Assembly: GCA_028875055.1 (NCBI GenBank)
Contig: JAPPGG010000043.1
Coordinates: forward strand, 1-64,000
Origin: Chloroflexota bacterium
Lineage (GTDB): Bacteria; Chloroflexota; Dehalococcoidia; Lucifugimonadales; UBA3495
Direction of reading: 5' to 3'
Length of the DNA: 64,000 nt
Under the pieces are notes generated by a model, which was given only the letters and a program-made list of their open reading frames with translations, made no database searches and was not told the origin of the DNA. Positions 25,772-40,271 of the stretch are shown piece after piece. Position numbers and translations under genes: made by a program. Position 1 is the first letter of the stretch, and the number at the start of each line of letters is the position of its first letter.

Positions 25772-25904
25772 GGAGTGTCGTCAAGTTGGCTGGCGATGCT
25801 TGAAAGAGGAGAAATGTTGACTACAGCCCGCGGGGTTCCCGCCTTCGCGGGAACGACGAAATGGGGCGCTGGGAAACTTCAATCTTCGATTTGACGACAG
25901 CCGC
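25771..25904 (+). mobile_element. 134-bp TA-flanked MITE in the stop codon of the histidine kinase gene
   Basis: Terminal inverted repeats of about 17 bp with the common core TGTCGTCAA lie at both ends, and TA dinucleotides flank the element (25769-25770 and 25905-25906). A second copy of exactly the same length is at 46471-46604. The interior carries the ggttcccgccttcgcgggaac hairpin. The TA target and non-coding interior fit an IS630/Tc1-type miniature element. The last element base plus the right-hand TA form the TAG stop of the kinase gene on the minus strand. Confidence 0.7.
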
Positions 25905-28315
25905 TAGGAACCCACCGTGGATTCCTGCTCCGTTTCCTCTGGCACTTCGTCTTCCGGCATTTCGCTTTCTGGCACTTCGCCCTCTGCCCCATTCTCGTCA
26001 ATGCTGATAATCGGCTTTACCAACGGGAGTTGAACCACCATCTGGGTGTATTCGTCCGGCTCCGAGGTAACGGTGATGGAGCCGCCGTGCTCGCGCACAA
26101 TGTCGCTGGAAATGGCCAGGCCCAGCCCCGTCCCCTGGTCGGTGGGCTTGGTGGTAAAGAAGGGGTTGAAGATCTTGTCAATGACGTCCTGGGGCATGCC
26201 GCTGCCGTTGTCCCTGATGGATATTTCCATATCGTTTTCGTTACGGCGGGTTGACAGGAGCAGGGTGGGGAAATAACTCTCGCCCTTTTCGGTGAGGATC
26301 TTCCGTTTCTCGTTGGTGGCGTAGCAAGAGTTGCTCACCATGTTCAGGAACACCCGGCCCAGGTCCTGGGGTATCACTTCCAGCTCTCCCATTTCGGGGT
26401 CAAGGTCATACTGCAGGTCCAGCTGGAACTCGGAATCGGTTGCCCTGGCGCTGTGGAAGGCCAGCCTGGAGTGTTCGTCAACCAAGCGATTGATGTCCAC
26501 CATCTGGAATTCGCCGGAGCCCCGGCTCATCATCAGCATGTCGTGGACGATGCGATTGGCCCGGTCGCCGTGGTTCTGGATGCGGTCCATATTGTCATGC
26601 AGGTCGTCGGAGATCTCCTGGATCAACCCCTTCTGCTCTTCGCTGAGGTTTTCTCCGGCCTCTTCCAGGACTTCCTGCAGCTCCGACAGGAGTTCCACCG
26701 AAGATTCAGAGAAGTTCTTGACGAAGTTGAGGGGGTTCCTGATTTCGTGAGCCACTCCGGCGGTCAGTTCGCCCAGGCTGGCCAGCTTTTGCTGAGTAAC
26801 TATCTGGTCCTGGGCCCGGCGCAGCTCTTCGAAAGCCGCCTGAAGTTCATCGTTTTTTTCCTGAAGGTCGCCGGCCAAAAGCTCTACCAGGTTAAGCCGC
26901 TGCACTTCCAGGGCGTGAAGGCGGAACACTTCCACCGCCGCGGCCATATCCGCCACCTCGTCGTGTCCACCCACGTCAACCTGGGCCTCAAGGTCGCCGG
27001 CGGCCATTCTTCTCATCCACGCGGATACCATGCCGATGCGCCGCAGCAGCACCCGCCCAACCAGCAGCCACGCCACCAGGGCGGCAACTACAACGCTGGT
27101 CAAGCTGATCACCAGGAGGAAGGTACGACCGGTCAATATGGCCTGGAGAGAGGCTTCCGTGGCTTCACTGGCCGTGGCCCGGGCGATGGTTACCAGTTCA
27201 TCAACCTCACCGACCAGGTCCAGCGCAGACTCCTGGTTACTTTCAAGAAGCTCGGCCTGCCGCTGAGCCAGGCGCAATTCTTCGGCCAGGAGGTTGAAGC
27301 CCGTCCCTTCGGATACCCCCAGCTTTTCCAGATTCTCAAATATGGGCACCAGGTCGTCATGAGTTTCCGTGCCCTCAAGGGAAGCGAGGTTGAATCCGAT
27401 GCGGTTCATGGCCGCTTCAAACCGTTCCCTGAGGGGCTCGAGGGACGCCGCCTCCGTTACGGCGAAGGCGCTGGCCATCAGTTCGGTAGCGATATTGCCG
27501 TCAACCTGCAATTCGGAAAGAAGGCGATACTTGTCAATCTCCCGGGGTGAGGCATGAACCACTTCGGGGTGGGGGGACAGGTCAATGTCATAATAGCCGG
27601 TTACAACGTAGAACAGCTGGTCGTCCAGGGCTTCCGTCATGTTGATCTCAAGGCTTCTCCGGACTTCCGACAACTCTTCCCGGAGATTGGCCCGCTTTTC
27701 GGCCTGGACAATCAGCTCGGTACGTTGATTCCTGAGAGTCTTGATGTTGGAGGTCAGCAGATTCGCGCCTTCCCGAATTTCCTGGAAGCTGAACTCTTCC
27801 AGGTGCGGGTCCAGCGCCGGGGCGGTCCGCTCCAGTTCGGCCAGTTCCACCTCCAGGGCATTGCTGGCCCCGGCTATAACGTAGGCATAAGTCTGGTCCA
27901 GTTCCACCACGGTCTGGGCGGTGACGATCCTGGGCGCGGCGGTAACCAGGCTGTTGCTGTACTGGGCGACCTCGAAGGCGGCCACCATCTCCGGAATGCT
28001 CTCATCATTCACGTGGCGCTGGGCATTGGCCACGCGGTCGAAGGAGAACCAGCCCACAATGGTGGCCAAAAGGGTGAGGGCCACAATGACGGCGAAGGCC
28101 ACGTACAGCTGGGTGGAAATCTTTCGACGGCTCTGCAGCAGACGGGGGCCCAGACCGGCTACGAAGTCCCTGGCCGAGTTGAGGCTGTCAGCGCTCAGGG
28201 GATTGCTGCCGCGGCGTTCCGGAGCGCCGGCGACACCCGCATCTGCCGGCTCGGGCTGGCTAGGGGCCCCGGTTTCCGGGGTTGGCGTCGATTCATCGGT
28301 CATGTCATCGGTCAT
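25904..28315 (-). CDS. Membrane sensor histidine kinase with HAMP domain
   Basis: The 803 residues comprise an unusual 68-residue disordered N-terminus rich in Pro/Glu/Ala, TM1 at about 70-91, a helical extracytoplasmic region to about 398, TM2 at 399-421, HAMP at about 422-475 (MRRMAAGDLEAQVDV, HDEVADMAAAVEVF), a coiled coil, and then the kinase core. His523 lies in the H box GVAHEIRNPLNF, the N box is NMVSNSCYA (658-666), G1 is DNGSGMP (702-708), the F box is FNPFFTTK, and G2 is GTGLGLA. The acidic tail ends at a TAG formed at the edge of a 134-bp repeat. Its ATG overlaps the stop of the binding-protein gene by four bases, so the kinase probably senses that protein's ligand. Confidence 0.92.
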   Translation of the reverse strand: MTDDMTDESTPTPETGAPSQPEPADAGVAGAPERRGSNPLSADSLNSARDFVAGLGPRLLQSRRKISTQLYVAFAVIVALTLLATIVGWFSFDRVANAQRHVNDESIPEMVAAFEVAQYSNSLVTAAPRIVTAQTVVELDQTYAYVIAGASNALEVELAELERTAPALDPHLEEFSFQEIREGANLLTSNIKTLRNQRTELIVQAEKRANLREELSEVRRSLEINMTEALDDQLFYVVTGYYDIDLSPHPEVVHASPREIDKYRLLSELQVDGNIATELMASAFAVTEAASLEPLRERFEAAMNRIGFNLASLEGTETHDDLVPIFENLEKLGVSEGTGFNLLAEELRLAQRQAELLESNQESALDLVGEVDELVTIARATASEATEASLQAILTGRTFLLVISLTSVVVAALVAWLLVGRVLLRRIGMVSAWMRRMAAGDLEAQVDVGGHDEVADMAAAVEVFRLHALEVQRLNLVELLAGDLQEKNDELQAAFEELRRAQDQIVTQQKLASLGELTAGVAHEIRNPLNFVKNFSESSVELLSELQEVLEEAGENLSEEQKGLIQEISDDLHDNMDRIQNHGDRANRIVHDMLMMSRGSGEFQMVDINRLVDEHSRLAFHSARATDSEFQLDLQYDLDPEMGELEVIPQDLGRVFLNMVSNSCYATNEKRKILTEKGESYFPTLLLSTRRNENDMEISIRDNGSGMPQDVIDKIFNPFFTTKPTDQGTGLGLAISSDIVREHGGSITVTSEPDEYTQMVVQLPLVKPIISIDENGAEGEVPESEMPEDEVPEETEQESTVGS

Positions 28316-29571
28316 GGGAAGACTTCTCGCATATTTTCAATTGCCCGGTAACTGCCGTCGGGCCCGATAACTGTGAGAAAGACCTGGTCAGAGCCCTGGT
28401 TATCCGCAAATCCATATTTCAGTCCGAACCCGTCCAGTTCAATGGAGTCAAAGGCGGAGATGGAATCGAGGAAACACTCGCGGGAAACCTCGCGACCGCA
28501 GGCCCGCAGGCCCTCAATGGCCAGGCGGCCCGCCAGGTAACCCTCAAGGGAAACCCAGCCGGGGCTGGCCTCGGGATCGTAGGCCTCCAGGGAGTTGAGG
28601 TAAGAGTCCACTATGGGGAGGGAATCGTCTGTGGGGAAGGGGACCACCTGGGTAACGAAGACATTCTCGCCGTCCCGGTCCAAAAACTTGGCCAGGGCAT
28701 TGCTGCCCACGAAGGAAATGGTAATGAACACCACATCCTCCATTCCGGCGCGCTTGGCCCAGGAGACAAAGGTGGCAACGGGCTGGTAGGCGCCAACCAT
28801 TATCACGGCCTCGGGATCGTCGTCCCGAATTTTCAGAATTGCCGACTTTACCGCCAGGGTATTGCGAGGATAAAAGCCCACGGACACGGGCTCCATGTCC
28901 CGGCGGTCCAGGGCCCGAGTGGCTCCGGTAAGCCCGGCCAACCCAAAGGAGTCATCCTGGTACAGAACGGCAATGCGCTCGATGCCCAGGTCCTCGGTAA
29001 GGCGAGCCACCATCTCCTCGGTTTCCTGGAAATAGGAGGCGCGGAGGTTTACAACATTGGGGTACGTAGTTTCGCGCAGGAAGGCGGCGCCGGTGAAGGG
29101 CGCCACATAGGGCACGTCGGCATCCAGGGCAATCGGGACGGCGGAGCGGGAGGTGGGCGTGCCCACGGCCCCGATCAAAGCGAAGATCTGGTTTTCCTCA
29201 ATCAGCTGGAAGGTGTTGGCGATGGCCGCTTCGGGTTCGTAGGCATCGTCCAGGGCAACCAGGTCCAGTTCCCGACCGTTGACTCCCCCGGCCTTGTTGG
29301 CCTCCTGGAAGGCGGCCAGAATGCCCAGCTGCATGTTGGTGCCCAGTTCCCAGGCAGGACCGCTGAAGGCGGCGGACTGGCCAAAGGTTACCTTGTCGTC
29401 GGTGACGCCGGGGTTTCGGTCCGGAGCGGGAGCGGAGTCCGGTTCCTGGTCAACGGAGTTTTCCTGGGGGGAAGGCTCGTCGGAATTGTTGCCGCACGCC
29501 GTTGCGGCCGGTCCCAGAAGGAGGACAAGGGCCAGCAATGCAAGCAGGAATGGCGCCGAGAAAGCTTTCAT
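28312..29571 (-). CDS. Periplasmic-binding-type lipoprotein (branched-chain amino acid ABC family)
   Basis: The protein is 419 residues with a lipoprotein signal ending LLGPAATAC, where Cys26 is the likely lipid anchor, followed by an acidic Pro-rich linker. The mature part is a Peripla_BP_6/LivJ-type domain: VTFGQSAAFSGPAWELG, GGVNGRELDLVALDDAYEPE, FALIGAVGTPTSRSAVPIA, and IERIAVLYQDDSFG. No permease or ATPase genes accompany it. Instead it is translationally coupled (ATGA) to the histidine kinase downstream, which suggests a ligand-sensing role rather than uptake. The ligand is unknown. Confidence 0.9.
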   Translation of the reverse strand: MKAFSAPFLLALLALVLLLGPAATACGNNSDEPSPQENSVDQEPDSAPAPDRNPGVTDDKVTFGQSAAFSGPAWELGTNMQLGILAAFQEANKAGGVNGRELDLVALDDAYEPEAAIANTFQLIEENQIFALIGAVGTPTSRSAVPIALDADVPYVAPFTGAAFLRETTYPNVVNLRASYFQETEEMVARLTEDLGIERIAVLYQDDSFGLAGLTGATRALDRRDMEPVSVGFYPRNTLAVKSAILKIRDDDPEAVIMVGAYQPVATFVSWAKRAGMEDVVFITISFVGSNALAKFLDRDGENVFVTQVVPFPTDDSLPIVDSYLNSLEAYDPEASPGWVSLEGYLAGRLAIEGLRACGREVSRECFLDSISAFDSIELDGFGLKYGFADNQGSDQVFLTVIGPDGSYRAIENMREVFP

Positions 29572-29596: not shown

Positions 29597-30016
29597 TTAA
29601 TCGGACTTGCGAATCACCATCGTGGAATGGTTTCTTGAATCTTCCCGCCGGTACTGGAAATCTTCGGTCATTTCCATGACGAAGTGGATTCCCAGCCCGC
29701 CGATTGGTCGTTCACTGATGGCGCCGTCAGTAACGGCGGGGCGGCCATCCTCCAGGGGATTGAAGGGACGACCATCGTCCATGAATTCAATGGTAATGGT
29801 ATCCGGGCCGGTGGAAACGGAAATGTCGAAGGTATGCAGGCCTTCGTCGTAACCGTAATTCATGATGTTGAGCCCGAACTCCTCGAGGACCAGGTTGGTC
29901 TTGAAGACCAGGGCAGGAGACCAGTCCTCTGCCTCTGCCAGCTGCTCCACGGACTGAAAAATGCGCTGCAACTCCTCCGGCCGGGTTTCCACTTTGAGGT
30001 CTATCTTGCTGGCCAT
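29597..30016 (-). CDS. Anti-sigma-factor serine kinase, RsbW/SpoIIAB-like
   Basis: The 139-residue protein with a GHKL ATPase fold has N box LVLEEFGLNIMNYGY (residues 43-57), G1 MDDGRPFNP (79-87) and G2 GGLGIHFV (106-113). Such kinases bind a sigma factor and phosphorylate a STAS antagonist. The ATG at 30016 overlaps the TAA of the upstream phosphatase gene by one base (TAATG) and is preceded by a G-rich site, so I prefer it to the ATA-containing upstream extension. The partners are present in the same operon, but no sigma factor gene is visible in the window. Confidence 0.9.
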   Translation of the reverse strand: MASKIDLKVETRPEELQRIFQSVEQLAEAEDWSPALVFKTNLVLEEFGLNIMNYGYDEGLHTFDISVSTGPDTITIEFMDDGRPFNPLEDGRPAVTDGAISERPIGGLGIHFVMEMTEDFQYRREDSRNHSTMVIRKSD

Positions 30017-31179
30017 TATGTAGCCCCCCCTCGGCAAAGGGTAAGGCAGGTTATATCGTCCGACTGAGGCGTATTGCCGGCAAAAGCGCGAACGGCGGCA
30101 AACATGGCTTCATTGATATCCATAGGGTCCTGCGACGGAGTGTTGGCTAACACCTCGGCCATGCGCTCCAACCCAAACTCCTCCCCTTCACTGTTCATAG
30201 CCTCGGACACGCCATCGGAATAAAAGAATGCGGCGTCGCCTGGCAGCATTTCAAAGCTGTCCTGAGAGTACTCCAGGTCTTCCAATACGCCGATGGCAAT
30301 GCCGCCGGTAAACGGAAGGGCTATCACGGTCCCATCCGCCCGCCTGACGTAGGGCGTGGTGTGGCCGCCATTTGCGTAGGTAAGCTTTCCATTCTTGGTG
30401 TCGTAGATTGCGTAGAGAAGAGTTACGAACATCATTGCCTCGTTGCCTTCGCAGAGGATGTCGTTAACTTCCTTCAGAACGTCGCCCGGTTCGTAGGTGC
30501 CTATGGCGGACCCCTTGAGCAGGGTCCTGCTGGACATCATGAACAGGGCCGCCGGAACACCCTTGTCGGACACGTCGGCGATGGCTACGCCAATGCGCTC
30601 GTTGTCCAGGCTGATAATGTCGTAGAAGTCGCCGCCCACTTCCCTGGCCGGCTCCATGCTGGCGAATACGGCATAGTCGCTGCCGCGGGGAAACTCGGTG
30701 GGCAGGATGGACTGCTGGATTTTGGCGGCAACGTTTAGTTCGTTCTCCAGGCTTACCAGCCGGTCCCGGGAAGAGAGGGCTTCCCGCCATTCCACCAGGT
30801 GGGCCAGGGTGCGGTCTATGGTCAACTGGAGGTCATCAAAGTCGAGAGGCTTGGTGACGAAGTCAAAGGCTCCGCGATTCATCGCGGTGCGAATGTTCTT
30901 CATATCCCCGTAAGCCGAAATGATGATGGACCTTACATTGGGGTCCACCTTGGGTATCTGCTCAAGGAGGGTAAGTCCGTCCATCTGCGGCATATTGATG
31001 TCCGAAATTACCATGTCGATATCATCTTCCTGCCGCAGAACGTCCAGGGCTTCTACGCCGTTATGGGCGAAAACAAAGCTGTATTGCCCGGCCCGGATGC
31101 GGCGGCGCATCCGCTGGAGCACCAGTGGCTCCAGGTCCGGTTCGTCATCCACCACTAGAATCTTGAATGCCTCTGGCAT
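30016..31179 (-). CDS. Response regulator fused to a PP2C-type SpoIIE/RsbU phosphatase
   Basis: The receiver domain spans residues 1-125 with KILVVDDEPD, phospho-acceptor Asp60 in DMVISDINMPQMDG, and conserved Lys110 in DFVTKPL. A coiled-coil linker with ENELNVAAKIQQSILP leads to a SpoIIE-type phosphatase with metal motifs VGGDFYD (181-187) and ADVSDKG (201-207), TYANGGH, and SDDITCL near the end. In partner switching this enzyme dephosphorylates the STAS antagonist, and the receiver implies control by a histidine kinase, probably the one encoded in this operon. The stop overlaps the start of the anti-sigma kinase gene. Confidence 0.93.
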   Translation of the reverse strand: MPEAFKILVVDDEPDLEPLVLQRMRRRIRAGQYSFVFAHNGVEALDVLRQEDDIDMVISDINMPQMDGLTLLEQIPKVDPNVRSIIISAYGDMKNIRTAMNRGAFDFVTKPLDFDDLQLTIDRTLAHLVEWREALSSRDRLVSLENELNVAAKIQQSILPTEFPRGSDYAVFASMEPAREVGGDFYDIISLDNERIGVAIADVSDKGVPAALFMMSSRTLLKGSAIGTYEPGDVLKEVNDILCEGNEAMMFVTLLYAIYDTKNGKLTYANGGHTTPYVRRADGTVIALPFTGGIAIGVLEDLEYSQDSFEMLPGDAAFFYSDGVSEAMNSEGEEFGLERMAEVLANTPSQDPMDINEAMFAAVRAFAGNTPQSDDITCLTLCRGGAT

Positions 31180-31291: not shown

Positions 31292-31627
31292 TTACCCAAT
31301 GGCGCCGATAGCAGCGTCCTGGGAGTCGTGGATGGGGATAATCTTGTCGAAGCCGCTGATAACGAAGACCTCTTTAACCGGCTCGGACAGGGAGCAGGCG
31401 GCCATTTTGGCGCCCTGACGCTGGAGGTCCTTGGCAATGAGCAGCACCACGCGCAGACCCGCGCTGCTGATGTAGGTCAGGTCTTCCAGGTCGAGAATTA
31501 CGGCCCGGTCGTTTTCATCAATTTAGCCTTTCATTGCGTCCTGGAATTCGCTGGCATTGGTGCCATCCACACGTCCATCGGCTTTCAATACCAGATTGGT
31601 GCCCTCGCGACGAGACTCTACGTTCAT
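31292..31627 (-). pseudogene. STAS-domain anti-anti-sigma factor gene interrupted by an in-frame TAA
   Basis: Translation from ATG 31627 (AGGAGG eight bases upstream) gives MNVESRREGTNLVLKADGR, then VDGTNASEFQDAMKG, then a TAA at 31525-31523. The same frame continues without frameshift for 76 more codons: DRAVILDLEDLTYISSAGL, RVVLLIAKDLQRQGAK, SLSEPVKEVFVISGFDKI. It closes with TAA at 31294-31292. That is a complete RsbV/SpoIIAA-like STAS domain, including the phosphorylatable serine in ISSAGL (codon 54 or 55). A single base change (for example from GAA or CAA) explains the stop. Possible explanations are a young pseudogene, readthrough, or an assembly or sequencing error. Confidence 0.85.
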
Positions 31628-40072: not shown

Positions 40073-40271
40073 GCAGGGCAATCGCGTTTTAATTGAATGT
40101 CATACTGAGCGAAGCCGAAGCATCTAAGATCTATCCCTGGAACCACCTTCACTACCCGCAGCCGGGCTGAGGATGAGGACTTCAGGCCCTTCGGCAAGCT
40201 CAGGGCGACATGACTTCTGCCCACCGAATTGTGCCTCCTGTAGCCTGATTCTATAGTGCAATTGCCCTGTA
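40073..40271 (-). repeat. MITE-like element with GGGCAATCGCG ends, reversed copy
   Basis: The ends gcagggcaatcgcgtttt and gtgcaattgccctgta bracket 199 bp that match the reverse complement of the elements at 5562 and 17951, including atccctggaaccaccttcac. It occupies the gap between the small membrane protein and argF, both of which read away from it. Confidence 0.75.

Follow-up and report, generated by a model that had tools for sequence, protein, structure and literature searches.

An in-frame stop codon in the STAS gene of an otherwise intact partner-switching operon of a Chloroflexota bacterium

What does it mean when the first gene of a signalling operon carries a stop codon inside an otherwise complete reading frame? 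The window analysed here, a 64,000-nucleotide stretch of a Chloroflexota genome, contains a gene for a STAS-domain protein that runs from ATG to TAA over 111 codons plus stop, is preceded by AGGAGG ~8 nt 5′ of the start, and has a single internal stop, the TAA of codon 35. Apart from this codon, start, frame, ribosome site and terminal stop are all intact, which confirms how the gene had been described in a sequence-only reading of this DNA, and a search of the whole genome recovers the locus with the same one TAA inside. The frame is not a chance ORF, because its counterparts in congeneric genomes align over the full length at 90–99% amino-acid identity and without a stop.

With an X in place of codon 35, the protein matches Pfam family PF01740 (E 3.5e-21) from residue 5 to 106 of 111, i.e. 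the STAS domain spans almost the whole protein, as in STAS-only anti-sigma antagonists of the RsbV/SpoIIAA type. The intact protein also matches the SpoIIAA structures 1auz, 1th8 and 1tid, and its YISSAGL segment aligns with FMDSSGL of SpoIIAA, placing a conserved, predicted phosphorylatable serine (~Ser55) downstream of the internal stop. Domain match and alignment thereby bear out the STAS identity assigned earlier. Read with the bacterial code, the frame is interrupted here and intact in all congeners; judged by its sequence, the gene is a broken, non-working member of the RsbV/SpoIIAA type.

Table 1. Features of the interrupted STAS gene and its operon (window coordinates)
Feature	Position	Strand	Evidence
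STAS gene (anti-sigma antagonist, RsbV-like), one in-frame TAA inside	31292..31627	-	ORF and Pfam
Internal TAA, codon 35 of the STAS gene	31523..31525	-	GAA in four congeneric genomes
Receiver and SpoIIE/PP2C phosphatase (RsbU-like), intact	30016..31179	-	PF00072 E 3.9e-25, PF07228 E 2.6e-50
HATPase_c_2 serine kinase / anti-sigma factor (RsbW-like), intact	29597..30019	-	PF13581 E 2.3e-20
Periplasmic ligand-binding protein (Peripla_BP_6), intact	28312..29571	-	PF13458 E 1.3e-53
HAMP sensor histidine kinase, intact	25904..28315	-	PF00672, PF00512, PF02518

The STAS gene heads a five-gene operon that continues with a receiver-PP2C phosphatase, an RsbW-like kinase, a periplasmic ligand-binding protein and a HAMP histidine kinase, all on the same strand and with frames that overlap or sit close together (Table 1; the start of the RsbW-like kinase was set where its frame overlaps the stop of the phosphatase gene, the ORF list giving a longer version with a TTG start at 30037). 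A partner-switching context had been proposed for the gene and is upheld by its neighbours, a Response_reg plus SpoIIE protein and a HATPase_c_2 protein, whose genes lie next to each other in an order kept across phyla. Indeed, loci from Chloroflexota, Acidobacteria, Acidimicrobiia, Rhodothermales and Opitutia share the complete five-gene order; some alphaproteobacterial loci depart from it, with a STAS gene that points towards the other operon genes or has none of them beside it in the stretch examined. In one Chloroflexi MAG (L044, 3929–6881) the full phosphatase gene is preceded by three matches to STAS and an additional, partial one to the phosphatase, which looks like a tandem duplication or a repeat introduced by assembly. 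We regard this operon, common to several phyla, as more interesting than the stop itself.

Adjacent genes for a STAS protein, a PP2C/SpoIIE phosphatase and a HATPase_c_2 kinase also occur in Rsb/SpoIIA partner switching (RsbU-RsbV-RsbW; SpoIIE-SpoIIAA-SpoIIAB), in whose canonical scheme the dephosphorylated STAS protein sequesters the kinase (PMC8256260). Unlike in those systems, the phosphatase here bears a receiver domain, a ligand-binding protein and a histidine kinase are added, no sigma factor gene lies within the five-gene operon, and the STAS gene is interrupted. Control of a STAS-only protein via a conserved serine, exerted by a regulator that has phosphatase activity, is likewise found in Pseudomonas aeruginosa PA3346/PA3347, where PA3346 is a response regulator, and in Vibrio SypE/SypA (PMC8256260); in contrast to both, the RsbW-like kinase here has a gene of its own, and the operon includes a periplasmic binding protein. 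In Bordetella BtrV/BtrW, the logic differs from canonical partner switching (PMC8256260).

The stop is confined to this genome among its relatives. Codon 35 is GAA (Glu) in all four congeneric genomes (G001–G004), each with an uninterrupted frame, and GCG in G007, a member of another genus of the same family. Compared with the closest relative, G003, only 2 of 336 nt differ, namely the stop and one synonymous change, so that dN is 0 and dS 0.013 once the stop is set aside; against the other congeners, dN/dS is 0.06–0.07. By these values, the operon gene had been under strong purifying selection, and it bears no further signs of decay beyond the stop. A class-wide search returned 50 other matches, including a stand-alone STAS paralogue of the same genome, none of which has an internal stop, and the search of relatives yielded as its sole other case a distant paralogue whose C-terminal end contains a TAG; no other homologue found contains a disabling internal stop. 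A search for a second occurrence of the species with a 30-nt pattern centred on this codon gave matches in no genome but this one and G003 among the loci compared, and none in viral_contigs.

The remainder of the operon is intact, as had been stated before: the other four genes and their aligned orthologues in relatives are free of stops, dN/dS for these genes is 0.04–0.17 against congeners G001, G002 and G004, and the phosphatase gene has a dN of 0 against G003. Decay of the whole locus was rejected in view of these low ratios and the lack of stops.

The neighbourhood of the operon bears on the age of the stop. From ~25.9 to 32.5 kb, the window is ~99.3% identical to G003; beyond 32.5 kb, identity to G003 (C485) is lower and uneven, mostly 89–98% per 500 bases (~95%), with a sharp step at ~32.5 kb. 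Likewise, dS against G003 is 0.013–0.044 for the five operon genes and an adjoining glyoxalase-like gene and 0.087–0.228 for genes further on. Low operon dS and the identity step together suggest that the whole signalling operon probably lies in a segment lately exchanged between this lineage and that of G003. As only two bases separate the two STAS genes, the stop arose, or was miscalled, after divergence at dS ~0.02; if real, it is by this reckoning younger than the divergence of the operon from G003.

On this evidence, the TAA is probably a very recent nonsense change in this strain, in which a single-base substitution from GAA (Glu) hit codon 35 of a previously constrained STAS gene. Translation would then stop after 34 residues, ahead of ~Ser55 and the greater part of the fold, so that a functional anti-sigma antagonist would not come from this copy. 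If the circuit works as Rsb systems do, its RsbW-like kinase would remain on a putative target, and the phosphatase, histidine kinase and ligand-binding protein would be left without a substrate from the STAS gene to act through; both the reality of the base in cells and this effect on the circuit are what we infer. Rescue by downstream re-initiation was considered and rejected, as the first in-frame ATG, GTG or TTG after the stop, the GTG of codon 60, already lies beyond the conserved serine. A genuine stop would mean that the circuit has been caught at the first step of its loss, before further decay. A precedent may be seen in Listeria, where natural loss-of-function alleles of SigB regulators are described and inactivating mutations arise readily (PMC13068326); those alleles come from cultured isolates, as opposed to the assembled genome considered here.

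The earlier alternative of a very recent mutation or a sequence error fits the two differences from G003, the GAA of the congeners and the intact operon, and its second half has a substantial, if minority, chance of being true: the stop may not be fixed in the organism, and metagenome assembly may instead have miscalled one base of the consensus or taken up the allele of a minority strain. Since all congeners are MAGs, this genome (75 contigs, 98% complete) is probably one too. In line with an error, the STAS protein is otherwise identical to that of G003 and neighbouring genes are intact; the lack of a second lesion in the STAS gene is equally expected from one. Among ~78 loci with congener orthologues, moreover, no internal nonsense codon but the STAS stop is convincing, which is how a rare random error would look. 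Two points speak against this: the stop is well away from the edges of its contig of 131,789 bases, and the change is a clean substitution of one base with no frameshifts nearby. Should it prove an error, the case would call for caution over single stops in assembled genomes. Either way, a mutation or an error suffices and no new mechanism is needed.

The count of convincing stops derives from a comparison with congeners that at first gave many apparent stops, most of which fell before the true start of a gene or in ORFs that were antisense or in another frame. Limited to called genes, it left three cases besides STAS; all three are close to gene starts, where the alignment is poor or gapped, and a high rate of error or decay was rejected on that ground. 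A separate codon-model scan covering 1.48 of the 3.75 Mb of this genome undercounts short interruptions and misses the STAS stop, because the first part of that gene is only 34 codons long. It returned 12 interrupted frames: four selenocysteine-like TGA frames, one TAG in an APH-like phosphotransferase frame (L205 4502, minus strand; G000:C74:4502), perhaps a second nonsense allele, and seven others, of which three (L143, L198, L134) resemble junctions or the ends of genes and four remain (two in L179, plus L141 and L195).

Could the operon gene simply have become dispensable? The stand-alone STAS paralogue (G000:C31:4779-5120, in this genome) is intact, 50% identical, retains YISSAGL and occurs in G003 as well, and might partly substitute for the operon copy. 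It therefore softens the expectation, reasonable in itself, that losing the STAS protein should inactivate the circuit. That it has taken over the role, making the loss neutral or selected, is nevertheless improbable, given that G003 and G002 retain both the intact operon gene and the stand-alone paralogue and that the operon gene was under strong purifying selection.

Least of all do we favour readthrough or recoding of the UAA, by which the complete STAS protein would be produced. In its favour, the frame runs on unaltered either side of the stop, and the genome very probably does recode another stop, as indicated by a tRNA-Sec gene and selenocysteine-like TGA sites; that machinery, however, reads UGA and not UAA, none of the 48 tRNA genes found in the genome has a UUA or CUA anticodon to read UAA or UAG, and three of the five operon genes (STAS, phosphatase and kinase) themselves terminate in TAA. 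Since relatives have an ordinary sense codon at this position (GAA or GCG), there is no conserved recoding site either. With no second convincing internal stop among the genes compared with congener orthologues, the readthrough or recoding suggested by the sequence-only reading found no backing; the set of tRNAs, the use of stops and the codon of relatives all led us to reject a suppressor tRNA or recoding, and it is hardly credible that the UAA is decoded often enough for readthrough to govern how much anti-sigma antagonist this strain makes.

A tRNA-Sec gene (G000:C71:25495-25587) coexists with in-frame TGA codons in a deiodinase-like protein (FGSYT[TGA]PPF; L156 17433, minus strand) and a rhodanese (FAY[TGA]QGGIRAAHG; L182 16630, minus strand), so the genome very probably makes selenoproteins. 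Two paralogous frames (L210 17568, plus strand; L150 3648, minus strand) carry an in-frame TGA at matching positions, SIYRA[TGA]EEGQVRRAYES, and are possible further selenoproteins; a Pfam scan of one of them gave no match. A second tRNA with a UCA anticodon and a long variable arm (G000:C8:38325-38413; L271 325-413) scored 41.3 bits, below the tRNA-Sec cut-off, and is possibly a second UGA reader.

Elsewhere in the window, a ~196-bp element at 40074–40270 has ~20 further copies in the genome, roughly 88–99% identical, and occurs in G003 too; it looks like a small dispersed repeat.
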